This document shows positions 1 to 59,480 of a stretch of DNA of 64,000 nt, piece after piece (position 1 is the stretch's first letter; every line of letters starts with the position of its first letter). The notes under the pieces are model-generated. The model was not told the origin of the DNA. It was given only the letters and a program-made list of their open reading frames with translations, and did no database searches. Origin of the DNA: Chitinophagaceae bacterium (lineage in GTDB: Bacteria > Bacteroidota > Bacteroidia > Chitinophagales > Chitinophagaceae); contig CANLAE010000001.1 in the NCBI GenBank assembly GCA_947488765.1, positions 186,001 to 250,000 of the forward strand. The letters run 5' to 3'. The position numbers and the translations under genes are program-made.

Positions 1-107
1 ACTGCATTTTCAAAATTTTCATCAATAAAATATTGAAGAGAATTAATTGATTCTGCCTGCAGCCTAATAGATTCTATAGCAGATTTTATAATAGTTGATT
101 GTTCCAT
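1..107 (-). CDS. kdsD: Partial N-terminus of a KdsD/KpsF-type arabinose-5-phosphate isomerase
   Basis: Only the first 35 codons are inside the window; the gene runs off the left edge. An ATG (complement of 105-107) opens a frame with no stop to base 1. The peptide (MEQSTIIKSAIESIRLQ, then AESINSLQYFIDENFENAV) resembles the N-terminal helix of the SIS-domain isomerases KdsD/KpsF/GutQ, which interconvert ribulose-5-phosphate and arabinose-5-phosphate for KDO synthesis. The diagnostic SIS and CBS domains are outside the window, so the call rests on a short segment. It is divergent from recQ, with 171 bp between the two starts. The kdsB gene at 48.9 kb belongs to the same pathway, which makes the call reasonable but does not prove it. 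Confidence 0.55.
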   Translation of the reverse strand, partial: MEQSTIIKSAIESIRLQAESINSLQYFIDENFENA

Positions 108-278
108 ATTCAGCAAATGTATTGTATCAATATTTACGCTTGTTTATGTAAAAAAAAAATTTAAGTTTGTATTAAATAAAAAATTTAAATTGAAGATAGG
201 AATTGTAAATTTATTTGTATCTTTTCATAAATAACACAATAAACCGACCCAAAGGATAAGTAATTTTGATTTACAATC

Positions 279-3110: not shown

Positions 3111-3175
3111 AATATAATTGTTTATTAAAACTAAAACAAAGATGCAATTTTTGTTTTCGGTTTACGTAAAATAAA

Positions 3176-19269: not shown

Positions 19270-20646
19270 CTATAAGTCTGATCGGTATTCACGCCACATT
19301 TCATTGAATGTTTTTGGGCTGAAATCTAAATTGTTTCTATTGGTAGTCCAACCTTTAAATATTTTATTTACTACCCAGTTTTTCAGTTTGCCGCTACCCA
19401 AATTCATCATGTTTCTATTTAGCGAAGATTGCTTCCAAGTTTTCCATGCAATGCGTTCCGCCAATGAACTATTTCCTTGCAAAACAGCTTCGTGCCTATT
19501 GTCTAATAAGAGTTCGTGCAGGTTAATTCTCACCGGACAAACCTCCGTACAATTACCGCAAAGCGAAGAAGCGTAACTCAAGTGTTTGTAATCTTGCATA
19601 CCACTGAGGTATGGAGTAATTACTTTACCAATCGGCCCGCTGTAAGTGGTTTCATAACTGTGACCACCAATGTTTTTATACACCGGACAAGCATTCAAAC
19701 AAGCCCCGCAACGAATGCAATACAACGCTTCTCTTGAAGTGGGATTTGCCAACAAATTGGTTCTGCCATTATCTAATAAAATCACATACATTTCTTGTGG
19801 TCCGTCGGTTTCATTGGCTTGTCTCGGACCCGTAATAATGCTGTTATAAACGGTTACTTTTTGTCCTGTACCATACGTACCTAATAATGGCCAAAACAAA
19901 CTTAAATCATTAATAGAAGGCAATACTTTTTCAATTCCAACAACTACAATATGTGTATTCGGCATGCTGCAACTAAGCCTTGCATTGCCTTCATTTTCTG
20001 TAATAGCAATGCCGCCTATATCTGCCAAAATAAAATTGCCGCCGGTTACCCCAACTTCGGCCTGAACATATTTTTCCCGCAACAATTGTCTTGCAACCTG
20101 TGTAAGTTCTTCGGGCGATAAACCACTTGGAACGCCTAATTTATCGGCAAATAATTTTGCAACATCCTCTTTGCTTTTGTGCATTGCCGGCGTAACAATA
20201 TGGTAAGGCGGTTCGCCATCTAATTGCTGAATGTATTCCCCCAAATCTGTCTCTACACTTTCTATCCCCAAATCTTCCAAATATTGATTCAAGTGAATTT
20301 CTTCGGTAACCATGCTTTTGCTTTTCACCAAAGTTTTACAGTTTTTGGCAGCACAAATTTTTCCAATTTCATCCAAAGCCTGTTGTGTATTTTCAGCCCA
20401 GATAACTGTTGCGCCGCGGCTTGTAATTTTTTGTTCAAACTCCAGTAAATATTTATCTAAATGTTCTATAGCATCCCACTTAATATTTTTTGCACGTTCT
20501 CTTGCTTCAGGCAATTGGCTGAACTGTGCTTTACCCATTGGCACCACCGCATTGTATTTACCAATGTTGAAATTAATTTTTCTACGATGCTCTAAATCGG
20601 CAGCTTTAATAGTGCTTTTGGCAATAAAAGACGAGGCTGTACTCAT
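19270..20646 (-). CDS. lutB: LutB/LldF-type iron-sulfur protein with LUD domain
   Basis: This 458-residue protein has a LUD domain (about residues 70-300) and two [4Fe-4S] motifs: Cys310-x2-313-x2-316-x3-320 (CIRCGACLNACP) and Cys363-x2-366-x3-370 (CGNCTEVCP). The C-terminus matches LutB. In Bacillus, LutABC oxidise L-lactate. Here neither lutA nor lutC lies beside it; they may be elsewhere on the chromosome. It is the first gene of a probable unit with the DUF7033 gene and pyrD. The start ATG at 20646 has a TAnnTTTG box only 4 bp upstream. One copy of the dispersed 17-nt repeat lies in the gap shared with lysS. Confidence 0.88.
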   Translation of the reverse strand: MSTASSFIAKSTIKAADLEHRRKINFNIGKYNAVVPMGKAQFSQLPEARERAKNIKWDAIEHLDKYLLEFEQKITSRGATVIWAENTQQALDEIGKICAAKNCKTLVKSKSMVTEEIHLNQYLEDLGIESVETDLGEYIQQLDGEPPYHIVTPAMHKSKEDVAKLFADKLGVPSGLSPEELTQVARQLLREKYVQAEVGVTGGNFILADIGGIAITENEGNARLSCSMPNTHIVVVGIEKVLPSINDLSLFWPLLGTYGTGQKVTVYNSIITGPRQANETDGPQEMYVILLDNGRTNLLANPTSREALYCIRCGACLNACPVYKNIGGHSYETTYSGPIGKVITPYLSGMQDYKHLSYASSLCGNCTEVCPVRINLHELLLDNRHEAVLQGNSSLAERIAWKTWKQSSLNRNMMNLGSGKLKNWVVNKIFKGWTTNRNNLDFSPKTFNEMWREYRSDL

Positions 20647-20658: not shown

Positions 20659-20727
20659 AGCAGGATTGATAATTGAAGAGGATTGAATTTTTTTGTTACC
20701 AACAATATTTTTTCATGGCATCGCCTG

Positions 20728-20770
20728 TTGCGTCGCACACTTGTGCTGTAACTATTCTGTTGAACAATTA
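20728..20770 (+). repeat. Dispersed repeat, copy 1 (lutB/lysS gap)
   Basis: The core TTGCGTCGCACACTTGT (20728-20744) occurs exactly at 48773 and 59430 too. The similarity to the 48.8 kb copy continues to 20770 (35 of 43 positions by eye). CCTG just before the core is shared with the 59.4 kb copy. Confidence 0.75.
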
Positions 20771-47877: not shown

Positions 47878-47908
47878 TTTGTATATTCACGTTTCAAAAA
47901 CGATTGCA

Positions 47909-48733
47909 ATGCTTGAAAACATCATTCAACATTTCTCAACTTTAGACCAACGCCCTATAGAAAGATTGGCTTTTTTAGTAGGTGGTCTATTGATTTTTTG
48001 GATAATTGAAGGCGCAATTCCTTTGTTTCAAAATCAATATAAAAAAACAAAGCTTCGTCATGCTGTAGTTAATTTTTCATTTACACTCATTCATTTGCTC
48101 ATTCATACTTTTTTGGCAATTGTCATCATTCAACTAAGTGATTGGTGCAAAGCAAAACAATTTGGATTGGTGTATTGGCTGCAAGCTTCCATTGTTTCAA
48201 CTATTCTTATTTCTTTTTTAGTATTGGATTTTTTTGGCGGATGGTTGGTACACATTACCGAGCATAAAGTAAAATTTTTGTGGCAATTTCATGTAGTGCA
48301 TCATGCAGATAATAATGTTGATGTTACTACAGGCCTTAGGCATCATCCAATAGAAAGTATTTTGCGAGGATGCTTCTTTTTTATGGGTATCTTACTCAGT
48401 GGTGCACCCATGTATGCTGTAATGATTTTTCAAACAATATTAATTGTTGCAACAGCATTTACACATGCCAATATTCGTTTACCAAAATGGTTAGATACTG
48501 CCTTAAGTTATATTTTAGTTAGCCCCAATATGCACAAAGTACACCATCATTGGAAACAACCTTACACCGATACCAATTATGGTGCAATATTGAGTATTTG
48601 GGACAGACTTTTGGGAACATTTGCACACCTCGATGCTCAGCAAATTAAATACGGATTGGATAGATATTATCCCAATGAAAAAGATGAAGACTTTCTGTTA
48701 TTATTAAAAAAGCCTTTTACTAAAATGGAATAA
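47909..48733 (+). CDS. Fatty acid hydroxylase / sterol desaturase family membrane protein
   Basis: This 274-residue integral membrane di-iron protein has several hydrophobic helices and the histidine clusters of the superfamily: HVVHHADNNVDVTTGLRHHP and MHKVHHHW. These bind two irons for C-H hydroxylation of a lipid. I use the ATG at 47909 (MLENIIQHF), since the TTG ten codons earlier lies in the dnaN terminator. The substrate is unknown; bacteroidete members include carotenoid and sphingolipid-type hydroxylases. It is 120 bp upstream of kdsB, with one copy of the dispersed repeat between them. Confidence 0.85.
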   Translation: MLENIIQHFSTLDQRPIERLAFLVGGLLIFWIIEGAIPLFQNQYKKTKLRHAVVNFSFTLIHLLIHTFLAIVIIQLSDWCKAKQFGLVYWLQASIVSTILISFLVLDFFGGWLVHITEHKVKFLWQFHVVHHADNNVDVTTGLRHHPIESILRGCFFFMGILLSGAPMYAVMIFQTILIVATAFTHANIRLPKWLDTALSYILVSPNMHKVHHHWKQPYTDTNYGAILSIWDRLLGTFAHLDAQQIKYGLDRYYPNEKDEDFLLLLKKPFTKME

Positions 48734-48772
48734 TTTGATGTTACAAGCTTTTGAATAAATATTGGGCAATTA

Positions 48773-48815
48773 TTGCGTCGCACACTTGTACTGCAACAAT
48801 ACTATGTAACAACTA
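48773..48815 (+). repeat. Dispersed repeat, copy 2 (upstream of kdsB)
   Basis: The 17-nt core TTGCGTCGCACACTTGT at 48773-48789 is identical to copies at 20728 and 59430. The following 26 nt resemble copy 1. It lies 65-81 bp before the kdsB ATG. Confidence 0.75.
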
Positions 48816-48853: not shown

Positions 48854-49573
48854 ATGAAAAAAGTTGCAATGATTCCTGCACGCTATGCTGCTACTCGTTT
48901 TCCTGCAAAGCTGATGCAATTACTAGGTAACAAAACTGTTATCAGACATACCTATGATAATACTGTTGCTACAGAGTTGTTTGATGAAGTTTGGGTGGTA
49001 ACAGATAGCAGCATTATCTATGATGAAATTGTAAATAATGGCGGCAATGCAATCATGAGCATTAACCCACATGAAAGCGGTAGCGATAGAATTGCAGAAG
49101 CAATTGCAACTATGGATGTTGATATTGTTGTTAATGTGCAAGGTGATGAACCTTTTGTACAACCAGCCCCACTTGAAAAACTGTTACAAACTTTTGAAGA
49201 CGCTTCTGTACAGGTAGCAAGTTTGATGCAGGTTTTAACCGATGCAAAATCAATAGCAGACCCTAATTATGTAAAAGTTGCAGTAGATAAAAATTGGAAT
49301 AGTTTGTTATTCAGCCGCAGCCCAATTCCCTATCACAGAGATCAAAATATTGTTCCTATTTATTACGAACATATTGGTGTGTATGCATTTCGTAAAGAAG
49401 CACTACTGAATTTTTCTTCTTGGTCCATTACACCATTGGAAGCTGCAGAAAAAATAGAATGTTTGCGCTACCTTGAAAATGGTATTCCATTAAAAATGGT
49501 TGTTACCGAATACATGGGGGTAGAAATAGACACTCCCGAAGATTTGGAAAAAGCAACACAGTTGTTGAAATAA
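48854..49573 (+). CDS. kdsB: 3-deoxy-manno-octulosonate cytidylyltransferase
   Basis: This 239-residue enzyme activates KDO as CMP-KDO for lipopolysaccharide inner-core synthesis. The N-terminal AMIPARYAATRFPAKLM is the nucleotide-binding signature. Other landmarks are DIVVNVQGDEPFVQP with the metal-binding Asp, YYEHIGVYAFRKEAL, and CLRYLENG near the end. I take the ATG at 48854: an upstream TTG in frame begins inside the dispersed repeat. A CATCTTTG box (one mismatch from TAnnTTTG, 48832-48839) precedes it. It pairs functionally with the kdsD-like gene at the left edge. Confidence 0.95.
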   Translation: MKKVAMIPARYAATRFPAKLMQLLGNKTVIRHTYDNTVATELFDEVWVVTDSSIIYDEIVNNGGNAIMSINPHESGSDRIAEAIATMDVDIVVNVQGDEPFVQPAPLEKLLQTFEDASVQVASLMQVLTDAKSIADPNYVKVAVDKNWNSLLFSRSPIPYHRDQNIVPIYYEHIGVYAFRKEALLNFSSWSITPLEAAEKIECLRYLENGIPLKMVVTEYMGVEIDTPEDLEKATQLLK

Positions 49574-57570: not shown

Positions 57571-59361
57571 TTAAAAACAATAATTGTTTTCAGTAAGCAT
57601 TTTATTGCAAATTCTTCTTCTAGCTTCTTTGGTATTAAATGGCTCTACTTTAGTAAATCTTTTTAAGCCAATGTGCATCATTCTTAATTCATCGCCTTCT
57701 GCAAAACTGTTTAAAGCATCTTTTCCTACTTTATTAATTTTGTCGGCAGCATCGTATAAATAAGTCCGCATTATATCAATTTCTAAGGCAGTTGCATCCT
57801 CACCTTGTTTTTCTACTAGTTTCATTACACGTAACAAAGCACTTTCGGTATGATAGGTTTCAATTGCCATATCAGCAATATTCATCAACACTTCCTGTTC
57901 CTTATCCAAACTCATCATGAGCTTTTGCACAGCAGCACCGGCAGTCATTAAAATGGCTTTTTTAAAGTTCTTGATGTACTTTATTTCTTTTGCAAATGCA
58001 CCTTCATCATCACTTCCAAAATCAGGAATGCTCATTAATTCTTTCTGCACATTCATGGCCGGTGTCATTAAATCTAATTTCCCTTTCATAGCACGTTTCA
58101 ACACCATATCTACAGTAAGTAAACGATTGATTTCATTGGTTCCTTCATAAATCCTATTGATGCGAGAATCTCTATAGGCCTTGCTGATAAGGTATTCATC
58201 GCTGTAACCATTACCACCATGTATTTGTACACCTTCATCTACTACATAATCCAATACTTCACTTCCAAAAACCTTTAACATAGCACACTCAATTGCAAAC
58301 TCTTCGGCAGCACCCAATAACGCTTCATTAAAAGGTTTTCCATCTTCAATCATTTCATGTTCTTTATCATCAATCCATTTAGCTGCTCTATATAAAGCAC
58401 TTTCGCCTACCCAAATACGAATTGCCATTTCTGCCAGCTTATGTTTGATGGCACCAAATTTTGCAATAGGTAATTTAAATTGTTCTCTTGTATTGGCGTA
58501 TTGTACACTTATGGTAGTTGCTCCTTTGCTGCCTCCCAATGCTGCGGCGCATAATTTTAAACGACCAATATTTAAAATATTAAATGCTATTATGTGTCCT
58601 TTACCAACTTCTCCTAAAATGTTTTCTACAGGTACTTTACAATCTTGAAAATACAACTGAACTGTAGATGAACCCTTAATGCCCATTTTGTGTTCCTCGG
58701 GTCCCTGTGTAAATCCTTCCATTCCTCGTTCTAAAATGAATGCAGTAAATTTATCGCCATCAATTTTAGCAAATACAGTATATACATCTGCAAAACCCCC
58801 ATTGGTAATCCAGCATTTTTGCCCATTTAATAAATAATACTTTCCATCATCACTTAATATGGCAGTAGTTTTTGCACTCAACGCATCGCTACCACTATTG
58901 GGTTCTGTCAATCCGTAAGCGCCTTTCCATTGACCGCTTGCTAATTTTGGAATGTATTTTTGTTGTTGTTGTGTTGTACCAAAATATAAAATTGGCAAAG
59001 TTCCAATACCGGTATGTGCTGCAACGGCAACGCTAAAACTATGACCTCCACCCAATCCTTCGTTCACAATTGTGCTGGTAATAAAGTCTTTCCCCAAGCC
59101 GCCCAAATCCTCCGGAAATGAAGTAGAAAGTAATCCTTGTTCACCTGCTTTTTCCAGTAATGATGGCATTAAGCCGGGTTCTAGTTGATCAATTCTGTCA
59201 ACAATTGGAAGTATCTCATTTTGTAAAAACTGATGACACATATCCAATACCATTCGTTGTTCTTCATTGAAATCTTCCGGAATAAAAGTATCAGAAGCAT
59301 TGCTTTCTTTAATAATCCATTCGCCACCTTTTAATGCCGTTGTTTGTTGTGTAGTATTCAT
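57571..59361 (-). CDS. Acyl-CoA dehydrogenase
   Basis: This 596-residue flavoenzyme oxidises acyl-CoA at the alpha-beta bond, the first step of fatty acid beta-oxidation. The FAD region AYGLTEPNSGSDA and WITNGG is present, followed by the catalytic Glu loop RIYEGTNEINR. The C-terminal extension of about 170 residues beyond the core resembles the very-long-chain class (VLCAD-like). It is longer than the short-chain type (about 380). No other beta-oxidation gene is adjacent. Its upstream gap holds a dispersed repeat copy, and a MarR gene lies 119 bp upstream on the same strand. Confidence 0.93.
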   Translation of the reverse strand: MNTTQQTTALKGGEWIIKESNASDTFIPEDFNEEQRMVLDMCHQFLQNEILPIVDRIDQLEPGLMPSLLEKAGEQGLLSTSFPEDLGGLGKDFITSTIVNEGLGGGHSFSVAVAAHTGIGTLPILYFGTTQQQQKYIPKLASGQWKGAYGLTEPNSGSDALSAKTTAILSDDGKYYLLNGQKCWITNGGFADVYTVFAKIDGDKFTAFILERGMEGFTQGPEEHKMGIKGSSTVQLYFQDCKVPVENILGEVGKGHIIAFNILNIGRLKLCAAALGGSKGATTISVQYANTREQFKLPIAKFGAIKHKLAEMAIRIWVGESALYRAAKWIDDKEHEMIEDGKPFNEALLGAAEEFAIECAMLKVFGSEVLDYVVDEGVQIHGGNGYSDEYLISKAYRDSRINRIYEGTNEINRLLTVDMVLKRAMKGKLDLMTPAMNVQKELMSIPDFGSDDEGAFAKEIKYIKNFKKAILMTAGAAVQKLMMSLDKEQEVLMNIADMAIETYHTESALLRVMKLVEKQGEDATALEIDIMRTYLYDAADKINKVGKDALNSFAEGDELRMMHIGLKRFTKVEPFNTKEARRRICNKMLTENNYCF

Positions 59362-59425
59362 AGCAAACTTGTTTTAAATTAATGTTTTGTTTGTTTTTAC
59401 CAGCCTGTAGAATATCAATTGAATA

Positions 59426-59446
59426 CCTGTTGCGTCGCACACTTGT
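59426..59446 (+). repeat. Dispersed repeat, copy 3 (marR/acyl-CoA dehydrogenase gap)
   Basis: CCTG followed by the core TTGCGTCGCACACTTGT (59430-59446), identical to copies at 20728 and 48773. CCTG is shared with copy 1 only. Downstream flank similarity is weak. Confidence 0.75.
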
Positions 59447-59480
59447 AAGTTTGGAACTTTATTAAGCAAGACAAATAAAC

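Follow-up and report, generated by a model that had tools for sequence, protein, structure and literature searches.

The usual view of short repeats in bacterial genomes is that they are parasites of a RAYT transposase. CGTC-tagged REPs are described as a CGTC tag with a stem of 8-9 bp and a loop of 4-5 nt, CGTC repeats are said to occur in Bacteroidetes among other phyla (Di Nocera et al. 2013, PMC3733652), and a Bacteroidetes subclass of RAYTs with atypical structures is listed (PMC6006769). Titles and beginnings of abstracts in the open-access literature yielded no description of the repeat reported here, and the open-access papers that contain its exact core strings are, by their titles, not about bacterial repeats.

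The element and its distribution

The window, by which we mean the whole stretch of 64,000 nucleotides that was analysed, belongs to a 2.5-Mb draft genome (the host genome, G000). The initial annotation had reported that a 17-mer, TTGCGTCGCACACTTGT, is present exactly at 20728, 48773 and 59430, each time on the plus strand, and had considered this triplication to be beyond chance. Indeed, no further match within 3 mismatches was found in the window, and the mean for shuffled sequence was 0.07. The count of 35 identical positions out of 43 between copies 1 and 2, which had been made by eye, was confirmed, and CCTG does precede the core in copies 1 and 3. This observation is correct but understated, since the 17-mers are the centres of an element of about 78 bp. 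The elements and the neighbouring open reading frames (ORFs) are located as follows.

20688..20768, plus strand: element copy 1 (T-tract, left boxes, core, right box), R1 model 57.3 bits
20728..20744, plus strand: core of copy 1, 17 nt, exact match
48733..48812, plus strand: element copy 2, R1 model 53.5 bits
48773..48789, plus strand: core of copy 2, 17 nt, exact match
59391..59469, plus strand: element copy 3, R1 model 59.7 bits
59430..59446, plus strand: core of copy 3, 17 nt, exact match
19270..20646, minus strand: ORF for a LutB/LldF-like L-lactate oxidation iron-sulfur protein, TIGR00273, 301 bits
20871..22385, plus strand: lysS ORF, name from the initial annotation
48854..49573, plus strand: kdsB-like ORF, from its N-terminal sequence
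57571..59361, minus strand: acyl-CoA dehydrogenase ORF, NF058590, 458 bits

After the three copies, the next-best match to the R1 model in the window scored 8.7 bits. The T-tract ends of copies 1 and 3 lie near the start codons of leftward ORFs, at 41 bp from that of the lutB-like and 28 bp from that of the acyl-CoA dehydrogenase ORF, respectively; copy 2 sits between a rightward ORF (47879-48733) and the kdsB-like ORF. The view that all three copies are outside genes holds provided that the latter ORF starts at the ATG at 48854; the ORF list instead begins it at a TTG inside the repeat. Among the gene names proposed earlier, those of the LutB-like protein and the acyl-CoA dehydrogenase are backed by family matches, with scores below the whole-protein cut-offs (445 for TIGR00273 and 600 for NF058590) because only the first 300 amino acids were scanned. 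The name lysS goes back to the initial annotation, the ORF having a strong match in 10 of 10 genomes of the genus, and the ORF at 48854..49573 is presumably kdsB-like, as judged from its N terminus.

When copies taken from 3-kb stretches around the matches were aligned on the core, the information content was at background outside about -42 to +37, and the element extends from -40 to +37 around the core. One end is formed by a T-tract at -40..-36, followed by two left boxes (ACCRRC at -32..-27 and TATTCARC at -15..-8), the nearly invariant core GTTGCGTCGCACACTT(GT or CA)AC at -3..16, and a right box, TTATTCARC, at 27..35. A degenerate box thus ends in C at the four positions -27, -8, 16 and 35, with a spacing of 19, 24 and 19 bp. 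This spacing of C residues is also favoured in G013, G032 (9 copies) and UBA4407; in G033 the boxes show a one-base ambiguity or shift, and in Limnovirga the outer boxes are weak. The left and right arms have a common consensus at a spacing of 43 bp, and the likeness of the two arms of one copy does not clearly exceed that of arms from different copies (0.387 versus 0.371, SE 0.012). Core positions -3 and 16 co-vary (59 G-C, 10 T-G), and neighbouring positions in the left and right blocks account for most of the mutual information, a pattern expected from shifts by one base. In two copies of G033 (L420 and L421), the bases just before the core are replaced by a different palindrome, CCCGAAACTTCGGG; these loci look as if one repeat had entered another.

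A search of the host genome for the 17-mer, as the initial annotation had suggested, returned 33 exact matches and 44 more within 3 mismatches, and none for the reversed control. These 77 sites comprise 37 on the forward and 40 on the reverse strand, and the exclusive plus-strand orientation is thus a property of the window and not of the genome. The nine-base core GCGTCGCAC has 88 copies on both strands versus 3 matches of the reversed control. A profile search gave 100 matches at E values up to 1 among the 150 candidates scored, which implies that copies with a decayed core are few in this genome. Of 59 relatives, 28 contain at least one match to a 15-mer (within one mismatch); the numbers range from 0 to 852 copies within the window's own family, with the maximum in G033, and three genomes outside the family have single matches. 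A class-wide sample of 395 genomes contained 10 with matches, namely 6 of the 9 members of the window's family and 4 of the 386 others. The counts in this sample were 61 for the host genome, 153 for G013, 1,538 for G333 (probably Limnovirga soli) and 1 to 9 for the three other family genomes, and the four genomes from outside the family carry 1 or 2 matches each. Of at least 119 named loci, the 80 listed are from genera that we take to be Chitinophagaceae, or from metagenome-assembled genomes filed as Chitinophagaceae, Chitinophagales, Sphingobacteriales, Bacteroidota or Bacteroidetes; it is from these loci that we take the window's family to be the Chitinophagaceae. The earlier suggestion of a dispersed family is borne out by the copy counts in the host, against 0 to 3 matches for its reversed controls, and in its relatives. 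The same counts, together with the shuffled sequences, refute a chance repeat without meaning, the probability of which we regard as practically nil.

Two further observations concern the distribution. One genome of another family (G304, 71% complete) contains a convergent pair with 120 bp between the copies (C129:4239-4373), which represents either transfer or contamination. An apparent run of plus-strand copies in G013, of the kind that a replichore bias would give, turned out to be an artefact, as minus-strand copies, including L329, are present in the same range.

Pairs, age and mobility

Among neighbouring copies less than 250 bp apart there were 31 convergent and 2 divergent but no tandem pairs, a count that includes at least 2 pairs twice, once for each sister genome. 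Close neighbours are thus almost always convergent pairs, as in REPINs. In G033, 18 pairs and 36 single copies were found in 178 kb; most copies of the host genome are single. Scanning of 52 pairs for a target-site duplication gave only one 2-bp excess (39% versus 21%) among many lengths and offsets. The arms of these 52 pairs were hardly more alike than the arms of different pairs (39.4% versus 37.3%). In G013, the middles of several pairs (L329, L350, L352, L357 and L359) carry other common inverted repeats of the GGCTCCGTAGGAGCC and CAGCGCCGTCAGGCGCTG types.

Outside the core the copies are strongly diverged, with a mean body identity of 0.42 in the host genome (87 copies, maximum 0.80), 0.49 in G013 (44 copies, maximum 0.82), 0.37 in the named loci (146 copies, maximum 0.88) and 0.40 in G333 (20 copies, maximum 0.72). 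Recent copies were not found among those compared in these four sets. Judged by this divergence, the copies compared appear to be old, although their number varies between genomes in the manner of a mobile repeat.

Two 20-kb stretches of G333 that lie side by side contain no copy of the element, while the 60 kb before them contain 20. These stretches (L443 and L444, C1:60001-100000) have a GC content of 34-35% and encode IrrE-like, DUF6443 and coupling-protein-like proteins and a serine recombinase. They are probably an integrated mobile island: in this one case, 40 kb of AT-rich DNA with coupling-protein-like and serine-recombinase genes seem to have been acquired and to have stayed free of the element.

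The numbers and the arrangement of the copies bring to mind a REP/REPIN family mobilised by a RAYT, a Y1 tyrosine transposase, in which case the conservation of the core would reflect recognition by the transposase. The high copy number, the mostly intergenic location, the convergent pairs and the lineage-specific copy number are all in line with this explanation, and one weak Y1_Tnp match lies 2.2 kb from a copy in the host genome. However, when Pfam PF01797, the only Y1 model used, was searched in 59 genomes and the 36 of the family were compared, the number of Y1 genes was unrelated to that of element copies (Spearman 0.02). A Y1 match was present in 8 of 10 genomes with at least 30 copies, but also in 8 of 11 with none, and G032 and G005, with 276 and 68 copies in this comparison, each had no Y1 match. 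Likewise, four of six Y1 loci of other genomes had no copy within 5.5 kb, while 3 copies were found at a locus of G033 and 1 at a locus of G035, and the repeats at both Y1 loci of G013 are unrelated to the element. Single copies also form no consensus hairpin, and recent copies were lacking among those compared. We therefore rejected a RAYT as the mobiliser on the strength of the comparison of copy numbers with Y1 matches in the 36 family genomes and of the six Y1 loci, and we consider the explanation as a whole to be quite unlikely. The palindromic repeats that adjoin a Y1 transposase gene in G013 (L325:3065-3204 and 3113-3156) and are unrelated to the element are perhaps the own REP family of that RAYT.

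Maintenance in place and gene context

The sister genome G005, whose flanks are about 91.5% identical to those of the host genome and which has 81 copies, allowed a comparison site by site. For 75 of the 88 host copies an orthologue with an exact core was found in G005, and 4 more (L074, L060, L062 and L073) have one changed core base there. The exact core has thus been kept at 75 of the 79 sites that still hold the element in G005, whereas the rate of the body predicts about 26%. Since the copies had been collected by the exact 9-mer, the edges of the core (-2, -1 and 10-12) were used instead for an unbiased comparison. In the 72 pairs with a defined context, changes were seen at 12 of 360 core-edge sites versus 445 of 3,096 sites of the body (-33..-9 and 17..34). 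The core-edge changes numbered 11 in 245 sites beside starts and 1 in 115 beside stops.

Insertions and deletions are also rare in the element. Over 75 pairs, with events counted in both directions, the interval -33..34 (68 bp) had 13 events, the equally long interval 43..110 had 74 and the shorter interval -70..-43 (28 bp) had 25. Indels are therefore about 5-fold rarer inside the element than just outside, which is about the level of coding sequence. The largely coding far left flank (-250..-101, 150 bp) had 17 events in the 75 pairs, corresponding to 1.5 per 1,000 site-pairs compared with 2.6 inside the element, so that the constraint on length holds relative to the intergenic neighbours only. 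The divergence between the two genomes is 11-17% in segments of the body, 7-10% in the outer flanks and 12% in the bases just right of the element; the body thus evolves faster than its flanks (11-17% versus 7-12%). Altogether, these comparisons show that the copies hold on to their core at each site, and less strictly to their length, whereas the sequence of the body drifts. An unchanged core amid such drift suggests that the element is still in use.

The 13 host copies without an exact-core partner include, besides the 4 with a changed base, one whose counterpart is cut off by a contig end (L051), one that is only partly matched (L058) and two for which the search gave no match in G005 (L042 and L043). 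At L067 and L078 the homology to G005 stops before the element, and L080 aligns to G005 at 85% identity with no recognisable element there, so that the element is gone in G005 at these three sites. Conversely, the host counterpart of the G005 copy L274 has a changed core, and the G005 copy L313 had no match in the host genome on search. None of the aligned unpaired copies of the two genomes (L081 and L024 left out) presented a clean empty site, and thus no sign of a precise insertion or excision was seen in this pair of genomes.

The initial annotation had considered a function unlikely if copies fell inside genes as often as in gaps. This is not so in the host genome, where a simple ORF caller placed 3 of the 88 copies inside ORFs. 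Other genomes have more copies within called ORFs, for instance 18 of 128 among the named loci. The T-tract end points towards a start codon in 57 of 85 placed host copies, at a median distance of 37 bp, and the bias is also present between co-directional genes (<< 37 versus >> 19, p 0.02). In G003 and G006, all 14 copies examined, of 39 counted there, face a start. This bias is absent from G033 (24 starts, 35 stops), G013 (18 and 18), Limnovirga (5 and 11) and the named loci (50 and 60). Stop codons precede the copies at a short distance in G033 and Limnovirga (medians of 4 and 13 bp).

These positions raise the possibility that the element is a cis-regulatory part, either of the promoter or of the 5' leader, of housekeeping genes and has spread for that role. 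NCBIfam models matched 42 of the 50 start-facing genes that were scanned, out of 57, with their first 300 residues, a shortened query that left many scores below the whole-protein cut-offs. Many of the matched genes are housekeeping genes, including those for GltX, MetG, SecA, GroEL, EF-Tu (tuf), AtpA, NuoD, NuoF, NuoI, CarB, PyrG, AccA, Der, Map and LpxC, a frequency that was counted without a background set. Further support comes from eight sites at which both flanking genes are common to other genomes, since the element has the same orientation and faces a start at all eight (three in G004 of the same genus, one in G033 of another genus and four in named records). Two of ten such matches, L151/L028 and L397/L001, were dropped for protein identities below 45% on both sides, and their orientation agrees too. 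Matches of a single flank with more than 45% identity were consistent in side and direction in 12 cases and inconsistent in 12, and matching of single flanks alone therefore proves little. Nevertheless, a cis-regulatory role as the reason for the spread seems unlikely to us: the bias towards starts is missing in G033, G013 and Limnovirga, the core is equally constrained beside stops, and the Bacteroidetes box TAnnTTTG is placed inconsistently. Separate copies were seen just upstream of nuoD-, nuoF- and nuoI-like genes (L086, L074 and L028) of the host genome, and one respiratory gene set may thus carry several copies.

A small RNA or structured RNA element, which the initial annotation had also proposed along with a palindrome, would account for a length that is kept despite the drift of the sequence and for the correlated variants at -3 and 16, and the mean folding z-score of single copies is slightly below zero on the antisense strand (-0.30, SE 0.11). 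The mean for the sense strand is, however, -0.03 (both by an approximate swap shuffle), and the three window copies range from -1.8 to +2.2 over both strands. RNAalifold placed 0 consensus pairs in 87 copies, so that single copies are not palindromes as had been suggested. The proposed check for covariation of a stem gave the same picture, as the correlated substitutions between orthologues of the host genome and G005 reveal no helix. No Rfam 15 covariance model, the mark of a known structured RNA, matched the window at the gathering threshold, and for 12 of 90 loci searched at E values up to 5 there were two matches, both far below the gathering scores. The arms of paired copies are, as mentioned above, hardly alike either. 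An RNA function is thus highly improbable.

Interpretation and comparison with known systems

A core that is constrained whatever the gene context, the resistance to indels and the lack of RNA structure point to a DNA site bound by a protein, and the way in which the degenerate boxes are spaced suggests that the contact is extended or oligomeric. From the REPIN-like pairs and the range of copy numbers we take the element to be an old repeat, the copies of which are now kept, those facing starts having lived longest in this genus. The reading that we prefer, with about as much confidence as doubt, is that of an old, Chitinophagaceae-specific repeat in REPIN arrangement, the copies of which are retained at their loci, probably as phased sites for a putative protein. 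The protein-binding site that the initial annotation had listed among its options thus fits the in-place constraint and the spacing best, the protein itself being putative on the sequence evidence. Each copy would be a DNA site on which such a protein, probably as an oligomer, assembles at the core and the phased flanking boxes. The copies may have arisen in old bursts through some mobilising activity, and a copy inserted immediately upstream of a gene in one orientation would have been more likely to be kept in this genus. Candidate outputs are chromosome organisation, transcription or the 5' ends of mRNAs. Against this reading stand the faster evolution of the body than of its flanks, a feature left unexplained by a simple binding site, the shifted or weak outer C boxes in G033 and Limnovirga, and the loss of the element at three sites in G005.

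A bolder version, which we put forward tentatively and think rather doubtful, is that these repeats form a new, Chitinophagaceae-specific class of nucleoprotein sites, with a 17-nt core and four phased boxes in about 78 bp, kept at almost all copies whatever gene adjoins and bound by a putative family-specific protein. If so, the role of the up to about 1,500 sites per genome would lie in chromosome organisation or in transcription as a whole, and not in the regulation of single genes. In contrast to parasites of a RAYT, the family combines about 1,500 copies per genome with non-palindromic single copies and cores that are apparently selected in place, and no link to a RAYT was found. It therefore lends itself to the question of when an old repeat between genes turns into a working part of the chromosome, and it is open to study in cultured soil bacteria such as Limnovirga soli.

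Among known systems, MITEs and solo terminal inverted repeats share with the element the convergent pairs with outward T-tracts and a short variable middle. They differ in that MITEs have terminal inverted repeats with a target-site duplication, of which the 52 pairs gave no signal, while the pair arms of the element are hardly alike and most host copies are single. With the CGTC-tagged REPs the element shares the letters CGTC and inverted dimers, and both lack a dedicated transposase; its CGTC is located within the core with no conserved stem after it, whereas theirs is an end tag followed by a stem-loop (PMC3733652). The element also resembles the REP/REPINs, that is, GTAG REPs with their RAYTs. 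Like these, the element is short, mostly extragenic, dispersed in high and lineage-specific numbers (88 copies in the host genome and up to 1,538 elsewhere), arranged in close inverted pairs and, in some high-copy genomes, located near stop codons. Unlike them, it is about 78 bp long, has no GTAG foot in its consensus, has bodies that are on average 37-49% alike around an invariant core, forms no consensus hairpin as a single unit, and shows neither a link to Y1 genes nor a copy number that follows theirs. As it fails the tests for a hairpin and for linkage to a RAYT, we regard the element as a variant related to the REP/REPINs rather than as a standard member.
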